Assembly (NCBI GenBank): GCA_009778265.1
Contig: WRKA01000162.1
Span: forward strand, 1 to 10,581
Reading direction: 5' to 3'
Length of the DNA: 10,581 bases
DNA from: Methanomassiliicoccaceae archaeon
GTDB taxonomy: Archaea; Thermoplasmatota; Thermoplasmata; Methanomassiliicoccales; Methanomethylophilaceae
This document shows positions 1 through 10,581 of the stretch, in pieces. The notes beneath the pieces were generated by a model, which was given only the letters and a program-made list of their open reading frames with translations, was not told where the DNA came from and did no database searches. The position numbers and the translations under genes were made by a program. Within the stretch, counting starts at the first letter, position 1. Every line of letters starts with the position of its first letter.

Positions 1-2696
1 GAGGAGGATACAAGAGCGCGTTCAACGACTTCGCGGTCAACATCGCCGCAGAGAGGATAAGGGATGCGGAGGCCGTGGGCGCCGAGATAATAGCGACCGC
101 GTGTCCGTTCTGCGTTCTCAACCTGAACGCCGGAGCGAAGAAGATAGGGTCGAAGGTCAAAGTGATGGACATCTCCGAGATACTGCTGAAAGTTACAGCG
201 CCGATAGAGGCCAGCGCCGCCGTCGCGCCGGCGCCCGCACCGGCTCCGGCACCCGTACCGGAGGTCGTCAAAGAGGTACCGAAGCCGGTCGTGGTGGAAG
301 AACCCCCGCCCGCACCCGTACCGGAGGTCGGCGAATGGGACGATCTCATTCTGGACACCCCGGAATCCAGGCTCAGGAGGATATTGTGGAAACGCGGGTA
401 CAGGTACAGAAGGAACTACGGCGATGATAAGATAACTATCGCATATCCGAAACCCCTTGCCGCGATATTCGTGAGCGATGAACGCGATCCAGAGACCGAT
501 CTGAGACTCATGGACCAGAAATGGTCGCTGATCAGGTTCATCAACAGCGAAATGTCCGACGATTCCGAAAAAGAGGCGCAGATCGTCATAGACCTGCTGA
601 ACAGAAGGGACGCGGGCGCCGCGGCCGAGGCCGCCAAGTTCGCTGAGCCGGAACCGATCCCGGAACCGACCGAAGAAGCGGAAGAAGAGATGGAACTTGA
701 CACTCCGGAGTACAGGCTCAGGAGGATATTGTGGAGACGCGGTTACAGGTACAGAAGGAACTACGGCGACGACAATATCACGATCGCCTATCCGAATTCC
801 GATGTCGCCGTGTTCGTGAGCAAAGATCCGGATTACGGCACCGACCTGAGACTGATCGACAAAGGATGGTCGCTCCTCAGATTCTATGAAGCGGACATGA
901 CGGATTCCGAAAAAGAGGCGGAGATCGTCATAGACCTGCTGAACAGAAGGGATGCTGCTGCTGCGGCCGCTGCGGCGAAGGCTGTGCCCAAGGCTACGCC
1001 CGTGCCCGCGGAAGAGGAGGAGGACAACGATATCTTCGCCGAAGAGACGCCTCAGGACAGCGCCGATCTGAAGCTCAGAAGAAGGCTCTGGAGACGCGGT
1101 TACAGGTACCGGAAACAATACGGCGATGAAAAGATGAACGTCGCCTACCTCAAAGCGAAAGTGTGCGCGTTCGTCAGCAAAAAGGATGACAACAGAACGG
1201 ACGACGCGTTAAGAGGAGAAGGATGGACCGTACTCAGGTTCAGAGAAGCGGACGTCACGGACGCGGTCAAAGAAGCTGACGCGGTGATCGCGGCGATAGA
1301 GGACAGCTTCGACGCTCACTGCGCAGAATATCTGACTGCGGCGGCGGAGGAACATGACGACGACGTCCTTGCGGACGAGATGCCCAGCGACTGCGCCGAC
1401 CTTAAGATCAGGAGGATATTGTGGAGACGCGGTTACAGGTACCGGAAGCATTACGGGAAGGACGATATCACCATCGCCTTCCTTAAGGCCAAGGTGGCGG
1501 CGTTCGTAGGTCCGGAAGCAAAGAACAGGGACACCGACGACGGCCTTAAGAAAGAGGGCTGGAACGTTCTGAGATTCAAAGATGCGGACGTGACCGACGG
1601 CAAGAAAGAGGCGGAAAGGATCATAACCGCCATCGAAAAAAGTCTGAACTCGATGATGAACGAGGACCTTCCCGCCAAAGGAAAAGTGAAGGTTGACGAG
1701 GATGTCCTGAAAGAAGAGAAAGCGGACGACCCGGCCGACCTGAAACTGCGGAGACTGCTGTGGTGGGGCGGCTACAGGTACAGACGCAAATACGGAAGAG
1801 AGAAGATAACCGTCGCATTCAGGAGAGCTAAGGTAGGCGCATTCGTCTCGGCGGACGCGCACAGGCGCAAAGGCGACGATCAGCTCGTAAAGAGAGGATG
1901 GACGGTAATGAGGTTCAGGGAATCCAACATCACCGACGCCAAGAAAGAGGCGGCGAAGGTGATAGCCGCGGTGGACAGGAACCTCTACCTGCTGTCGAAA
2001 GGCATCATACCCGAGGGAGCGAACATCACGTGCACGGATGTCCTTGACCGCGACGTGGAAGAGAACACGCCGGAGTACAGGCTGAGGATGGCGCTGTGGC
2101 CCACTAACCGTTACAGGAAGAACTTCGGAGAGGAGAACATCGACATCGCGTACCCGGGTTCCAAAGTGGCGGTGTTCGTTTCCGACACGACCGACAGAAA
2201 ACCGTGCGACGACCGCCTCGAAGAGGATAACTGGGCGGTCCTCAGGTTCAAGGGAGTGAACATCACCGACGGTAAGAAAGAAGCGGAAAAGGTGATCGCG
2301 GCGATCGAAAAGAATAAAAAACTCGTCGACGCCATGGAATCGGAGAAGTACGACGTAGATAACATGGACGATCTTGCGTACCTTCTCGAGGACACCCCCG
2401 AACTCAGGGTCCGCAGGGCGGTCTGGAAGAAGAAACTGAGATACAGAAGGAACTACAGCCGGTACAAGATACACATGGCGTTCGTGAAGTGGCAGGTGGC
2501 CGCGTTCATCGACACCGATCCTAAGAAGAGACCGGTGGACGATACGCTGACGAGCAAAGGATGGATAGTCCTCAGGTTCAGGGAATCGGGTATCACCGAC
2601 GGTAAGAAAGAGGCGGAACAGATCTTTGAGGCTGTGAAGGAGAATAAAAAACTTCTGAAAAAGCCTAAAAAGAAGCCGGCGAAAAAGAAAGAATGA
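1..2696 (+). CDS. HdrD-type CCG domain fused to seven tandem Vsr-like (nuclease-fold) repeats; 5' end missing
   Basis: The reading frame is open from base 3 and ends at TGA 2694-2696, giving 897 visible residues; the start lies before the window. Residues 1-70 resemble the second half of a CCG domain as in heterodisulfide reductase HdrD and glycolate oxidase GlcF: TACPFCVLNL carries the CxxC that closes a cluster-binding CX(n)CCX(n)CxxC motif, followed by VKVMDISEILL. A Pro/Ala/Val linker (about 75-117) leads to seven repeats of about 86 residues starting near residues 118, 233, 352, 463, 576, 688 and 797, separated by acidic or Ala-rich spacers, and a Lys-rich tail. Each repeat follows LRRxLWxRGYRYR..YG..I.IA...VAAFV...D..L...GWxVLRF...ITD..KEA..VI, the pattern of Vsr endonucleases. 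Known: CCG domains bind [4Fe-4S] clusters in disulfide- or hydroxyacid-linked redox enzymes. Inferred: the repeats are inactive binding or scaffold modules. No membrane segment is seen. What the HdrD part reduces cannot be judged from this fragment. Confidence 0.85.
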   Translation, partial: GGYKSAFNDFAVNIAAERIRDAEAVGAEIIATACPFCVLNLNAGAKKIGSKVKVMDISEILLKVTAPIEASAAVAPAPAPAPAPVPEVVKEVPKPVVVEEPPPAPVPEVGEWDDLILDTPESRLRRILWKRGYRYRRNYGDDKITIAYPKPLAAIFVSDERDPETDLRLMDQKWSLIRFINSEMSDDSEKEAQIVIDLLNRRDAGAAAEAAKFAEPEPIPEPTEEAEEEMELDTPEYRLRRILWRRGYRYRRNYGDDNITIAYPNSDVAVFVSKDPDYGTDLRLIDKGWSLLRFYEADMTDSEKEAEIVIDLLNRRDAAAAAAAAKAVPKATPVPAEEEEDNDIFAEETPQDSADLKLRRRLWRRGYRYRKQYGDEKMNVAYLKAKVCAFVSKKDDNRTDDALRGEGWTVLRFREADVTDAVKEADAVIAAIEDSFDAHCAEYLTAAAEEHDDDVLADEMPSDCADLKIRRILWRRGYRYRKHYGKDDITIAFLKAKVAAFVGPEAKNRDTDDGLKKEGWNVLRFKDADVTDGKKEAERIITAIEKSLNSMMNEDLPAKGKVKVDEDVLKEEKADDPADLKLRRLLWWGGYRYRRKYGREKITVAFRRAKVGAFVSADAHRRKGDDQLVKRGWTVMRFRESNITDAKKEAAKVIAAVDRNLYLLSKGIIPEGANITCTDVLDRDVEENTPEYRLRMALWPTNRYRKNFGEENIDIAYPGSKVAVFVSDTTDRKPCDDRLEEDNWAVLRFKGVNITDGKKEAEKVIAAIEKNKKLVDAMESEKYDVDNMDDLAYLLEDTPELRVRRAVWKKKLRYRRNYSRYKIHMAFVKWQVAAFIDTDPKKRPVDDTLTSKGWIVLRFRESGITDGKKEAEQIFEAVKENKKLLKKPKKKPAKKKE
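231..350 (+). other. Pro/Ala/Val interdomain linker
   Basis: This segment encodes alternating Ala-Pro and Val-Pro-Glu units, with PAPVPEV occurring twice. A 19-base string is repeated exactly at 249-267 and 312-330. It joins the iron-sulfur domain to the first Vsr-like repeat. Such Ala-Pro linkers are usually extended and stiff, as in lipoyl-domain enzymes, and may hold the repeats away from the redox part (inference). Confidence 0.75.
354..614 (+). repeat. Vsr-like repeat 1
   Basis: Begins DTPESRLRRILW and ends LNRRDA. It has the GYRYR, IAYP and AIFV elements and the late WSLIRF strand. The position of the Vsr catalytic Asp is Thr (ITIAYP). It is closest to repeat 2, with which it shares whole segments such as EKEAQIVIDLLNRRDA. 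Confidence 0.8.
699..956 (+). repeat. Vsr-like repeat 2
   Basis: Begins DTPEYRLRRILW and ends LNRRDA, followed by a poly-Ala spacer. The catalytic Asp position is Thr (ITIAYP). Bases 718-752 are identical to 1408-1442 in repeat 4. Confidence 0.8.
1056..1310 (+). repeat. Vsr-like repeat 3
   Basis: Begins DSADLKLRRRLW. The Glu of the TPE motif is replaced by Asp, and the catalytic Asp position is Asn (MNVAYL). The helix after the last strand reads TDAVKEADAVIAAIE. It is of the LKAKVCAFV subtype, close to repeat 4. Confidence 0.8.
1389..1646 (+). repeat. Vsr-like repeat 4
   Basis: Begins DCADLKIRRILW. The catalytic Asp position is Thr (ITIAFL). It carries the GWNVLRF strand and the TDGKKEAERIITAIEKSL helix. 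At protein level it resembles repeat 3, but it shares a 35-base identical block with repeat 2. Confidence 0.8.
1728..1994 (+). repeat. Vsr-like repeat 5
   Basis: Begins DPADLKLRRLLWWGGYRYR. The catalytic Asp position is Thr (ITVAFR). The GWTVMRF strand and TDAKKEAAKVIAAVD helix are kept. Confidence 0.8.
2064..2327 (+). repeat. Vsr-like repeat 6 (keeps the catalytic-position Asp)
   Basis: Begins NTPEYRLRMALWPTNRYR, so the usual RGY turn is replaced by PTN. It is the only copy with Asp at the Vsr catalytic position (IDIAYP). The His expected after the next strand is absent: the sequence there reads AVFVSDTTD. Confidence 0.8.
2391..2666 (+). repeat. Vsr-like repeat 7
   Basis: Begins DTPELRVRRAVWKKKLRYR. 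The catalytic Asp position is His (IHMAFV). It is followed by a short Lys/Pro tail (KKPKKKPAKKKE) that ends the protein, which may bind nucleic acid or an acidic partner (inference). Confidence 0.8.
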
Positions 2697-9758: not shown

Positions 9759-9834
9759 TGGTGCCGTGAGCCGGACTCGAACCAGCGACATCTGCGTCTT
9801 CAGCGCAGCACTCTCCCAACTGAGTTACCACGGC
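9759..9834 (-). tRNA. tRNA-Phe(GAA), CCA encoded
   Basis: On the minus strand the sequence folds as a complete cloverleaf: acceptor gccgtgg pairs with tcacggc (one G-U pair), a D arm with agttggga, anticodon stem ctgcg/cgcag enclosing the loop ctgaaga (9797-9803), a variable loop atgtc, and a T arm gctgg-ttcgagt-ccggc. The anticodon is GAA at 9799-9801, reading Phe codons. The discriminator is A at 9762 and CCA follows in the DNA at 9759-9761. No intron is present. A TATA-like box (ctttataata on the minus strand, about 9858-9867) lies about 26-30 bases upstream of the 5' end. Confidence 0.97.
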
Positions 9835-10036: not shown

Positions 10037-10581
10037 TTGGCAGATAGCGCACAGTTGGACAATGCTTTCTCTAAATTGAAAACGACCGCGGAAGCTGAGC
10101 TTAAACTTTGGCTGGCAACATGGCCGCCTACGTCCAGTTCTAAGACCGCATTGGTAAATGCAAGACAGGCAACGGCGGCGGCGGCGGCAGAATACATAAA
10201 GATCGCATCCTCGGAGGGGGTGACGGTAGACCCCAAGATCAAAACGGTGGCGGAACACAGCACTTCGGCCGCCGCGATGGCGGCGGTGAATGAGATAGGG
10301 ACTGCGGCATCGAGCGGTAAACTTACCAAGGAACAAATGCAGGATTCTCTTACATTCAGCGCTCCGACGGCCGGTACGATACTCGGGTCCGCCACCCTGC
10401 TCACAAAGACCGCGGATCTCAGAACCGCCACCACCGCCGCGAAGATCGCCGATACCGTAAAAGCGGCGGATACCGTAAAGGCTGTCGAAACAACGGCTGC
10501 CGAGATAAAGGCTACCGAGGTAAAGGCTGCCGCCGATACCGTAAAAGCGGCGGATACCGTAAAGGTTGCCGAGGTAAAGGC
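10037..10581 (+). CDS. Ala/Lys/Thr-rich repeat protein, 3' end beyond window
   Basis: Open from TTG 10037-10039 to the window end (181 residues seen). It begins LADSAQLDNAFSKLKTTAEA (first residue Met if TTG is the start). A mixed region of about 130 residues follows with a poly-Ala run (ATAAAAAEYIKIA) and SGKLTKEQMQDSLTFSAPTA. From about residue 136 the sequence becomes repetitive: IADTVKAADTVKA, AAEIKATEVKA, AADTVKAADTVKV. This is a 28-residue period built from small helix-forming units and probably makes a long charged helix or coiled coil. No signal peptide or membrane segment is seen in the visible part. The TTG start is chosen because GAGG lies 9 bases before it and the TATA-like box at 9995-10003 fits; another TTG nine bases upstream is possible. 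Unknown function; TolA-like or histone-H1-like composition is only a resemblance. Confidence 0.7.
   Translation, partial: MADSAQLDNAFSKLKTTAEAELKLWLATWPPTSSSKTALVNARQATAAAAAEYIKIASSEGVTVDPKIKTVAEHSTSAAAMAAVNEIGTAASSGKLTKEQMQDSLTFSAPTAGTILGSATLLTKTADLRTATTAAKIADTVKAADTVKAVETTAAEIKATEVKAAADTVKAADTVKVAEVK
10447..10565 (+). repeat. 35-base direct repeat with 84-base period inside the last gene
   Basis: Bases 10447-10481 and 10531-10565 are identical. Each copy contains two gataccgtaaa units. The 84-base period equals 28 codons, so the frame is kept. A further short repeat, gaggtaaaggc, occurs at 10517-10527 and 10571-10581, which suggests the array goes on beyond the window. Confidence 0.9.

Follow-up and report, generated by a model that had tools for sequence, protein, structure and literature searches.

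A gene at the start of a 10,581-nucleotide stretch of archaeal DNA (Methanomassiliicoccaceae archaeon, assembly GCA_009778265.1, contig WRKA01000162.1; the whole stretch is referred to as the window) appears to encode a heterodisulfide reductase subunit of the HdrD type with a long, flexible tail of seven Vsr-fold domains that are, judged by their residues, catalytically dead. These domains, called beads here, would bind instead of cutting. The reading tentatively preferred is that they form a non-catalytic, multivalent tether on HdrD, whose target would most likely be a polyanion, with nucleic acid considered before others.

The frame runs uninterrupted from position 3 to 2696 of the plus strand and translates into 897 amino acids. 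Its beginning (3..200, +) is the C-terminal end of an HdrD-like protein, with the last CCG domain and its CPFC motif (Pfam CCG, PF02754, amino acids 1-41, 24.2 bits against a cut-off of 20.6), and is followed by an Ala/Pro/Glu-rich linker (201..350, +) preceding the first repeat. Over the whole protein Pfam Vsr scored 75.8 bits (cut-off 27) and Pfam DUF559 59 bits (cut-off 20.6). A bead profile was built from 47 relatives' copies, with the window rows excluded. This window-free profile detected exactly seven Vsr-like domains, at amino acids 117-204, 232-319, 351-438, 462-550, 575-663, 687-774 and 796-884, scoring 77.6 to 121.4 bits, and none of 200 shuffled versions of the window protein scored against it at E ≤ 10. 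An earlier note, made from the letters of the window, had described an unbroken frame with an HdrD-type end, an Ala/Pro linker and seven Vsr-patterned domains, and each of these features was recovered.

The same note had called for recovery of the 5′ end of the gene and had named an assembly error as a possible source of the union. The 5′ part of the iron-sulfur protein was found on another contig of the same genome, C105 (L003, minus strand, 1079-3). The reverse complement of C105 ends in the first 52 nucleotides of the window as an exact overlap, the frame stays open across the join, and the joined protein comprises about 1,230 amino acids. Seven other genomes of the window's genus, termed g1, were compared. 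In six of them a single contig holds both HdrD and beads, the copy numbers being 4, 4, 5, 5, 5 and 6 (two of these proteins are truncated at the 5′ end); in the seventh, G002, no bead copy was found and the HdrD matches were only short. Because six relatives have both parts on single contigs, the fusion is not an assembly error, and a chimera was ruled out. Seven copies are one state of a variable number, and a single copy is the rule in other genera.

The enzyme part was examined in fuller relatives. In a full-length relative (L142), a 4Fe-4S dicluster domain (Fer4_8) and two CCG stretches are present, and of 42 HdrD-type proteins fetched, 39 have both CCG motifs in full; the other three are truncated at the 5′ end. 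Among solved structures, the closest chains are those of an iron-sulfur-binding reductase and of HdrB subunits. A search of NCBIfam gave no HdrD match; the best match was TfrB, with 183.9-211.3 bits in three fuller proteins against a cut-off of 385. The name HdrD is therefore used as a probable assignment, based on the arrangement of domains and on published reports of hdrD in Methanomassiliicoccales. According to the accessible parts of those papers, this order has hdrD and lacks hdrE, and a direct interplay between HdrD and an Fpo-like complex is assumed (PMC4153887, PMC7374477, PMC6147122). The proteins studied here share with HdrD of Methanomassiliicoccales the iron-sulfur dicluster and the two CCG domains, but differ by the C-terminal linker and beads, which are absent from HdrD-type proteins of the sampled genomes outside the family of the window genome.

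To characterise the bead fold, copy 7 was modelled from 54 aligned copies. The predicted structure, with a predicted local distance difference test score (pLDDT) of 88.4 and a predicted template modelling score (pTM) of 0.75, has the order of elements helix-strand-strand-strand-helix-strand-helix. Its best structural match in the PDB is the catalytic domain of I-Bth0305I (3r3p, E 1.4e-3, probability 1.00, template modelling score 0.75), the next is a chain of the T. gondii mitoribosome and the fourth is a putative endonuclease (3hrl); none of the structural matches of this model reaches E 0.001, and by sequence the PDB gave no credible match. I-Bth0305I is grouped with Vsr in a study of FASTKD4, in the portion of that paper available (PMC11879112). 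It differs from the bead in being a homing endonuclease, while the bead is without Vsr-type catalytic residues. Among known profiles, Pfam Vsr scored 17.8 bits on copy 7 alone (cut-off 27), TIGR00632 scored 52.5 bits (cut-off 97.85), and at E ≤ 0.1 the Vsr profile matched 26 of the 54 copies, DUF559 31 and MTES_1575 8, the matches to the latter two endonuclease-like families being weak (best 3.9e-5 and 1.6e-4). With Vsr (PF03852, TIGR00632) the beads share the predicted fold and an N-terminal signature, which reads LR.ELW..G.RYRK in true Vsrs by eye; they differ in the missing catalytic residues and in being C-terminal modules, where Vsr stands alone. The earlier label "Vsr-like" thus stood for the fold as predicted for copy 7, an unrelated fold not being seen, and failed for the catalytic residues.

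The residues were surveyed in 138 copies; a copy truncated at a contig end and a match of 22 bits were set aside. Of the 138, 130 lack the catalytic Asp, and the FWHG active-site segment was found in none. The eight copies with Asp all belong to g1, whose 36 copies have Thr (20), Asp (8), Asn (5), His (2) or Pro (1) at this position. HdrD beads of other genera have Pro (31), Gln (3) or Glu (1), beads on membrane proteins Pro (49) or Gln (3), and beads on other proteins Pro (14) or Gln (1). As a control, 12 weak bead-profile matches from the window's family, taken from a longer list (L272-L283), were inspected; all 12 proved to be true Vsrs that contain both PD and CD(S/A)EFWHG, and they match the bead profile in two pieces flanking the CD(S/A)EFWHG segment. 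The bead therefore resembles a Vsr from which the active-site segment has been lost, and, judged by their residues, the beads are non-catalytic. An active Vsr was ruled out on these counts, and the earlier suggestion that a nuclease fold had been reused was upheld, the nuclease residues being gone. Eleven positions are conserved, each in 128-138 of the 138 copies: R9, R10, W13, R18, R20, Y23, G24, A31, W59, T70 and D71. On the redox control or electron transfer that the earlier note put forward as possible roles of the repeats, the seven-copy alignment revealed no Cys conserved in the window's genus; at bead position 19, single-copy beads of other genera most often have Cys, and beads of the window's genus Tyr. 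As a separate observation, the dead domain may have arisen from the true Vsrs found in this archaeal family (12 of 12 sampled).

Along the plus strand of the window, copies 1 (351..614, 77.6 bits, net charge 0), 2 (696..959, 93.9 bits, -2), 4 (1386..1652, 116.7 bits, +6) and 5 (1725..1991, 116.5 bits, +12) have Thr at the catalytic Asp position, copy 3 (1053..1316, 107.1 bits, +2) has Asn, and copy 7, the copy modelled (2388..2654, 121.4 bits, +10), has His. Copy 6 (2061..2324, 111.6 bits, +1) keeps the Asp and is missing the FWHG segment. A Lys-rich C-terminal tail with a net charge of +7 (2655..2693, +) and the stop codon (2694-2696, +) complete the protein. Among g1 relatives the average net charge of a bead is +6.5. 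On average, the first 24 residues of the bead carry +3 to +5, and the Lys-rich tail that follows the last bead +5 to +10. Outside g1, HdrD linkers have a median of 85 amino acids (41-299, 33 proteins) and are rich in Ala, Glu, Lys and Pro. Window copies 4-7 were also modelled together from seven sequences (pLDDT 78.5, pTM 0.45); in three stretches of linker the pLDDT fell below 50. The model predicts four separate folded units, arranged as beads on a string with no confident packing. In the linkers of the window protein (e.g., 2325-2387), short acidic motifs, DVLxEE and DLAYLL, lie right ahead of the next bead; a helical turn was predicted in two of the three modelled linkers, and these may be binding motifs.

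Selection was assessed by comparing the last four window copies with their counterparts in six relatives, giving 24 comparisons. The proportion of nonsynonymous differences (pN, 0.08-0.35) was below that of synonymous differences (pS, 0.51-0.85) in all 24, a pattern of purifying selection on the bead copies as read from these sequences. In five of the six relatives the best-conserved copy is copy 5 (79-87% identity; 52% in L167). This copy is both the most conserved and the most basic, and may hold an essential function. Copies 1 and 2 (351-959) represent a younger duplication, with 74% identity, a synonymous divergence (dS) of 0.57 and a nonsynonymous divergence (dN) of 0.17. In a tree of beads with 58 of its 119 inner branches left open, the last copies of g1 are nearest to the single copies of other genera. 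Five HdrD beads of genus g11 fall among beads of membrane proteins, which hints at exchange, although no strongly supported branch forces it.

The distribution of the bead was followed through the family of the window genome (f1, 102 genomes, genera g1-g14), which the assembly titles suggest is Methanomethylophilaceae. At E ≤ 1e-3, 88 of the 102 genomes match; four of these have only weak matches of the true-Vsr type, leaving 84 of 102 with a bead. In other families of the order, one of 45 sampled genomes matches weakly (8.7e-5), and none of the 45 reaches bead-level scores. At 1e-10, 54 of 400 genomes sampled from the class and 35 of 389 from the phylum match, every one of them in f1. A pattern scan of a named genome collection gave 52 loci in assemblies labelled Methanomassiliicoccales, Methanomassiliicoccaceae, Methanomethylophilaceae, Methanoplasma or Methanomethylophilus, some of the loci lying in assemblies labelled plain Thermoplasmata, Thermoplasmatales or Euryarchaeota. 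In all searches made, the bead thus appears restricted to one archaeal family. A viral origin was rejected, no relative being present in viral contigs or phage records.

Carrier proteins were classified from 107 fetched loci plus the window. The bead is C-terminal, and among the 108 proteins 43 are of HdrD type, 52 are multi-transmembrane proteins (at least four hydrophobic segments, by a crude hydropathy count) and 13 are others, several of which are cut or masked. The earlier note had asked whether the repeat always follows an HdrD domain; a tie specific to HdrD was not supported. No genome showed more than one HdrD-type and one membrane-type bead protein. Beads occur on HdrD only in g1, g3 (one genome), g6 and g7, and on membrane-type and unclassified proteins only in g4 and g12, where none was seen on HdrD; both carriers occur in 15 of 17 g5 genomes, in g13 (one genome) and in some g10, g11 and g2 genomes. 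No bead was found in g14 (six genomes), g8 and g9 (one each), G002 of g1, G008 of g2, seven g4 genomes and one g6 genome. These patterns include many incomplete f1 genomes and some cut proteins. An HdrD-type match at 1e-40 is present in 100 of the 102 f1 genomes, counting in a paralogue of about 35% identity, and the closer HdrD of g4 and g12 lies in stop-to-stop frames of mostly 395-540 amino acids. Of the membrane parts, 51 of 52 form one BLAST-linked group, the exception coming from g2. The only tandem copies seen outside g1 are the three in a truncated g12 protein (L162). Three g12 proteins (L113, L143 and L156) have repeated units of about 45 amino acids ahead of the bead. The window's genus has a doubled multi-transmembrane protein (L288-L295, 405-429 amino acids) that is related to the bead-bearing one and lacks a bead; a hidden bead was ruled out, as all eight proteins are doubled transmembrane units with no match. 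Its NYLSDLG motif is reminiscent of DUF998.

The tether reading is based on the beads being selected, non-catalytic by their residues, flexible and common to a membrane protein. The bead would serve as the C-terminal tether of HdrD and of an unrelated multi-transmembrane protein, each held near a common kind of target, and in the window's genus, where the bead number on HdrD is up to 4-7, avidity would rise. Nucleic acid is the first guess for the polyanion because the bead start is basic and the tail Lys-rich, and because true Vsrs act on DNA and the nuclease-inactive FASTKD4 binds RNA. In the part of the FASTKD4 paper available, its Vsr-like domain is nuclease-inactive, C-terminal and uses its cavity in RNA binding (PMC11879112). 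FASTK/RAP proteins differ from the present ones in being eukaryotic and mitochondrial; no RAP profile of Pfam matched any of the 54 copies at E ≤ 0.1, and RNA binding by beads is putative. Several points weigh against the preferred reading. Single-copy beads carry almost no net charge overall, with averages of -0.2 on HdrDs outside g1 and -1.1 on membrane proteins, and the net charge of the window beads spans -2 to +12. R9, W13, R18 and R20 are by eye common to true Vsrs as well, so their conservation may be structural. There is no metabolic rationale for a heterodisulfide reductase with a nucleic-acid target, and the gene neighbourhoods, described below, lend bead function no support, because both loci also occur where the bead is missing.

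A membrane protein as docking partner is almost as likely as a polyanion target, and is itself possible but doubtful. The beads would then bind a membrane protein or complex, for example the Fpo-like complex, replace the missing HdrE anchor and keep HdrD at the membrane. Such docking would suit an order that has HdrD without HdrE and in which a direct contact of HdrD with the Fpo-like complex is assumed (PMC4153887, PMC7374477); the same bead on a membrane protein also speaks for it. However, the bead is absent at bead-level scores from the 45 sampled genomes of other families and from six of six g14 genomes, and since these bead-free lineages also have an HdrD-type protein, docking can work without a bead. 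In addition, the bead-bearing membrane protein needs no anchor.

Self-association, in which beads of HdrD and the membrane protein, or of several HdrD chains, bind mutually and cluster the enzyme, is unlikely. The genera with both carriers (g5, g13 and parts of g10, g11 and g2) would fit such pairing, but g1, g3, g6 and g7 have HdrD beads without membrane-protein beads and g4 and g12 the reverse, so the pairing is not general, allowing for incomplete genomes and cut proteins. Moreover, the g1 membrane paralogue lacks a bead in eight of eight genomes, and the tandem copies are predicted without confident packing. That some or all beads remain nucleases, cleaving nucleic acid through a changed active site, is very improbable: Asp stands at the catalytic position in 8 of 36 copies of the window's genus, copy 6 included, but FWHG is missing throughout and Pro or Gln takes the Asp position in nearly every copy outside g1. 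Equally hard to credit is neutral accretion of a tolerated tail with no role, which the patchy presence and variable copy number would suit, but which conflicts with pN below pS in every comparison and with the eleven kept positions.

Taken further, the tether reading leads to a bolder and rather doubtful proposal, that a retired DNA-repair nuclease fold became an exchangeable tether serving central energy metabolism within a single archaeal family. Multivalent dead-Vsr beads would fasten two carriers, the anchorless HdrD and, in sister genera, a membrane protein, to a common cellular polymer or surface, and a former DNA-nicking domain would thereby link methanogenic electron transfer physically to nucleoid, RNA or membrane. 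Dead nuclease folds are already known as binding modules; what is new here is an archaeal case, confined to one family in the searches made, on a methanogenic redox enzyme and in tandem. If true, it would add an archaeal example of a nuclease fold turned binding module. No paper describing Vsr-like beads on HdrD was found in a literature search whose coverage leaves most subscription journals outside, and among the matches listed the sole paper combining HdrD with a "C-terminal extension" means, in its available part, an extension of MtrA. How HdrD is held and coupled in methanogens lacking HdrE appears unsettled in the accessible literature. The beads offer a concrete, removable module on HdrD, with natural zero-, one- and many-copy versions for comparison, and the genome titles of the lineages concerned include Candidatus Methanomethylophilus and Candidatus Methanoplasma.

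Gene neighbourhoods were compared using crude open reading frame picks. A gene for an Lhr-type helicase is nearby in 38 of 40 loci of HdrD with beads, nearly always next downstream. Bead-free HdrD also adjoins the Lhr helicase: this holds for all six genomes compared from g4 and g12 and for 4 of 10 from outside the family, and in five more genomes outside the family the two are separated by a gap of about 0.9-1.9 kb; a functional link to the helicase was therefore dropped. The membrane-protein gene lies by genes that we take, from their sequences and known family features, to encode a beta-CASP nuclease (40 of 52 loci), TFS (38 of 52) and PCNA (34 of 52). The same locus occurs without the membrane-protein gene in genera that have beads on HdrD only, and likewise in two genomes from outside the family, and a functional link to these three was likewise dropped.

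Elsewhere in the window, a low-complexity open frame at the contig end (10028-10579) gave no Pfam match at E ≤ 1 and includes short tandem repeats at 10476-10571. A tRNA-Phe gene with anticodon gaa lies at 9759-9834 on the minus strand.

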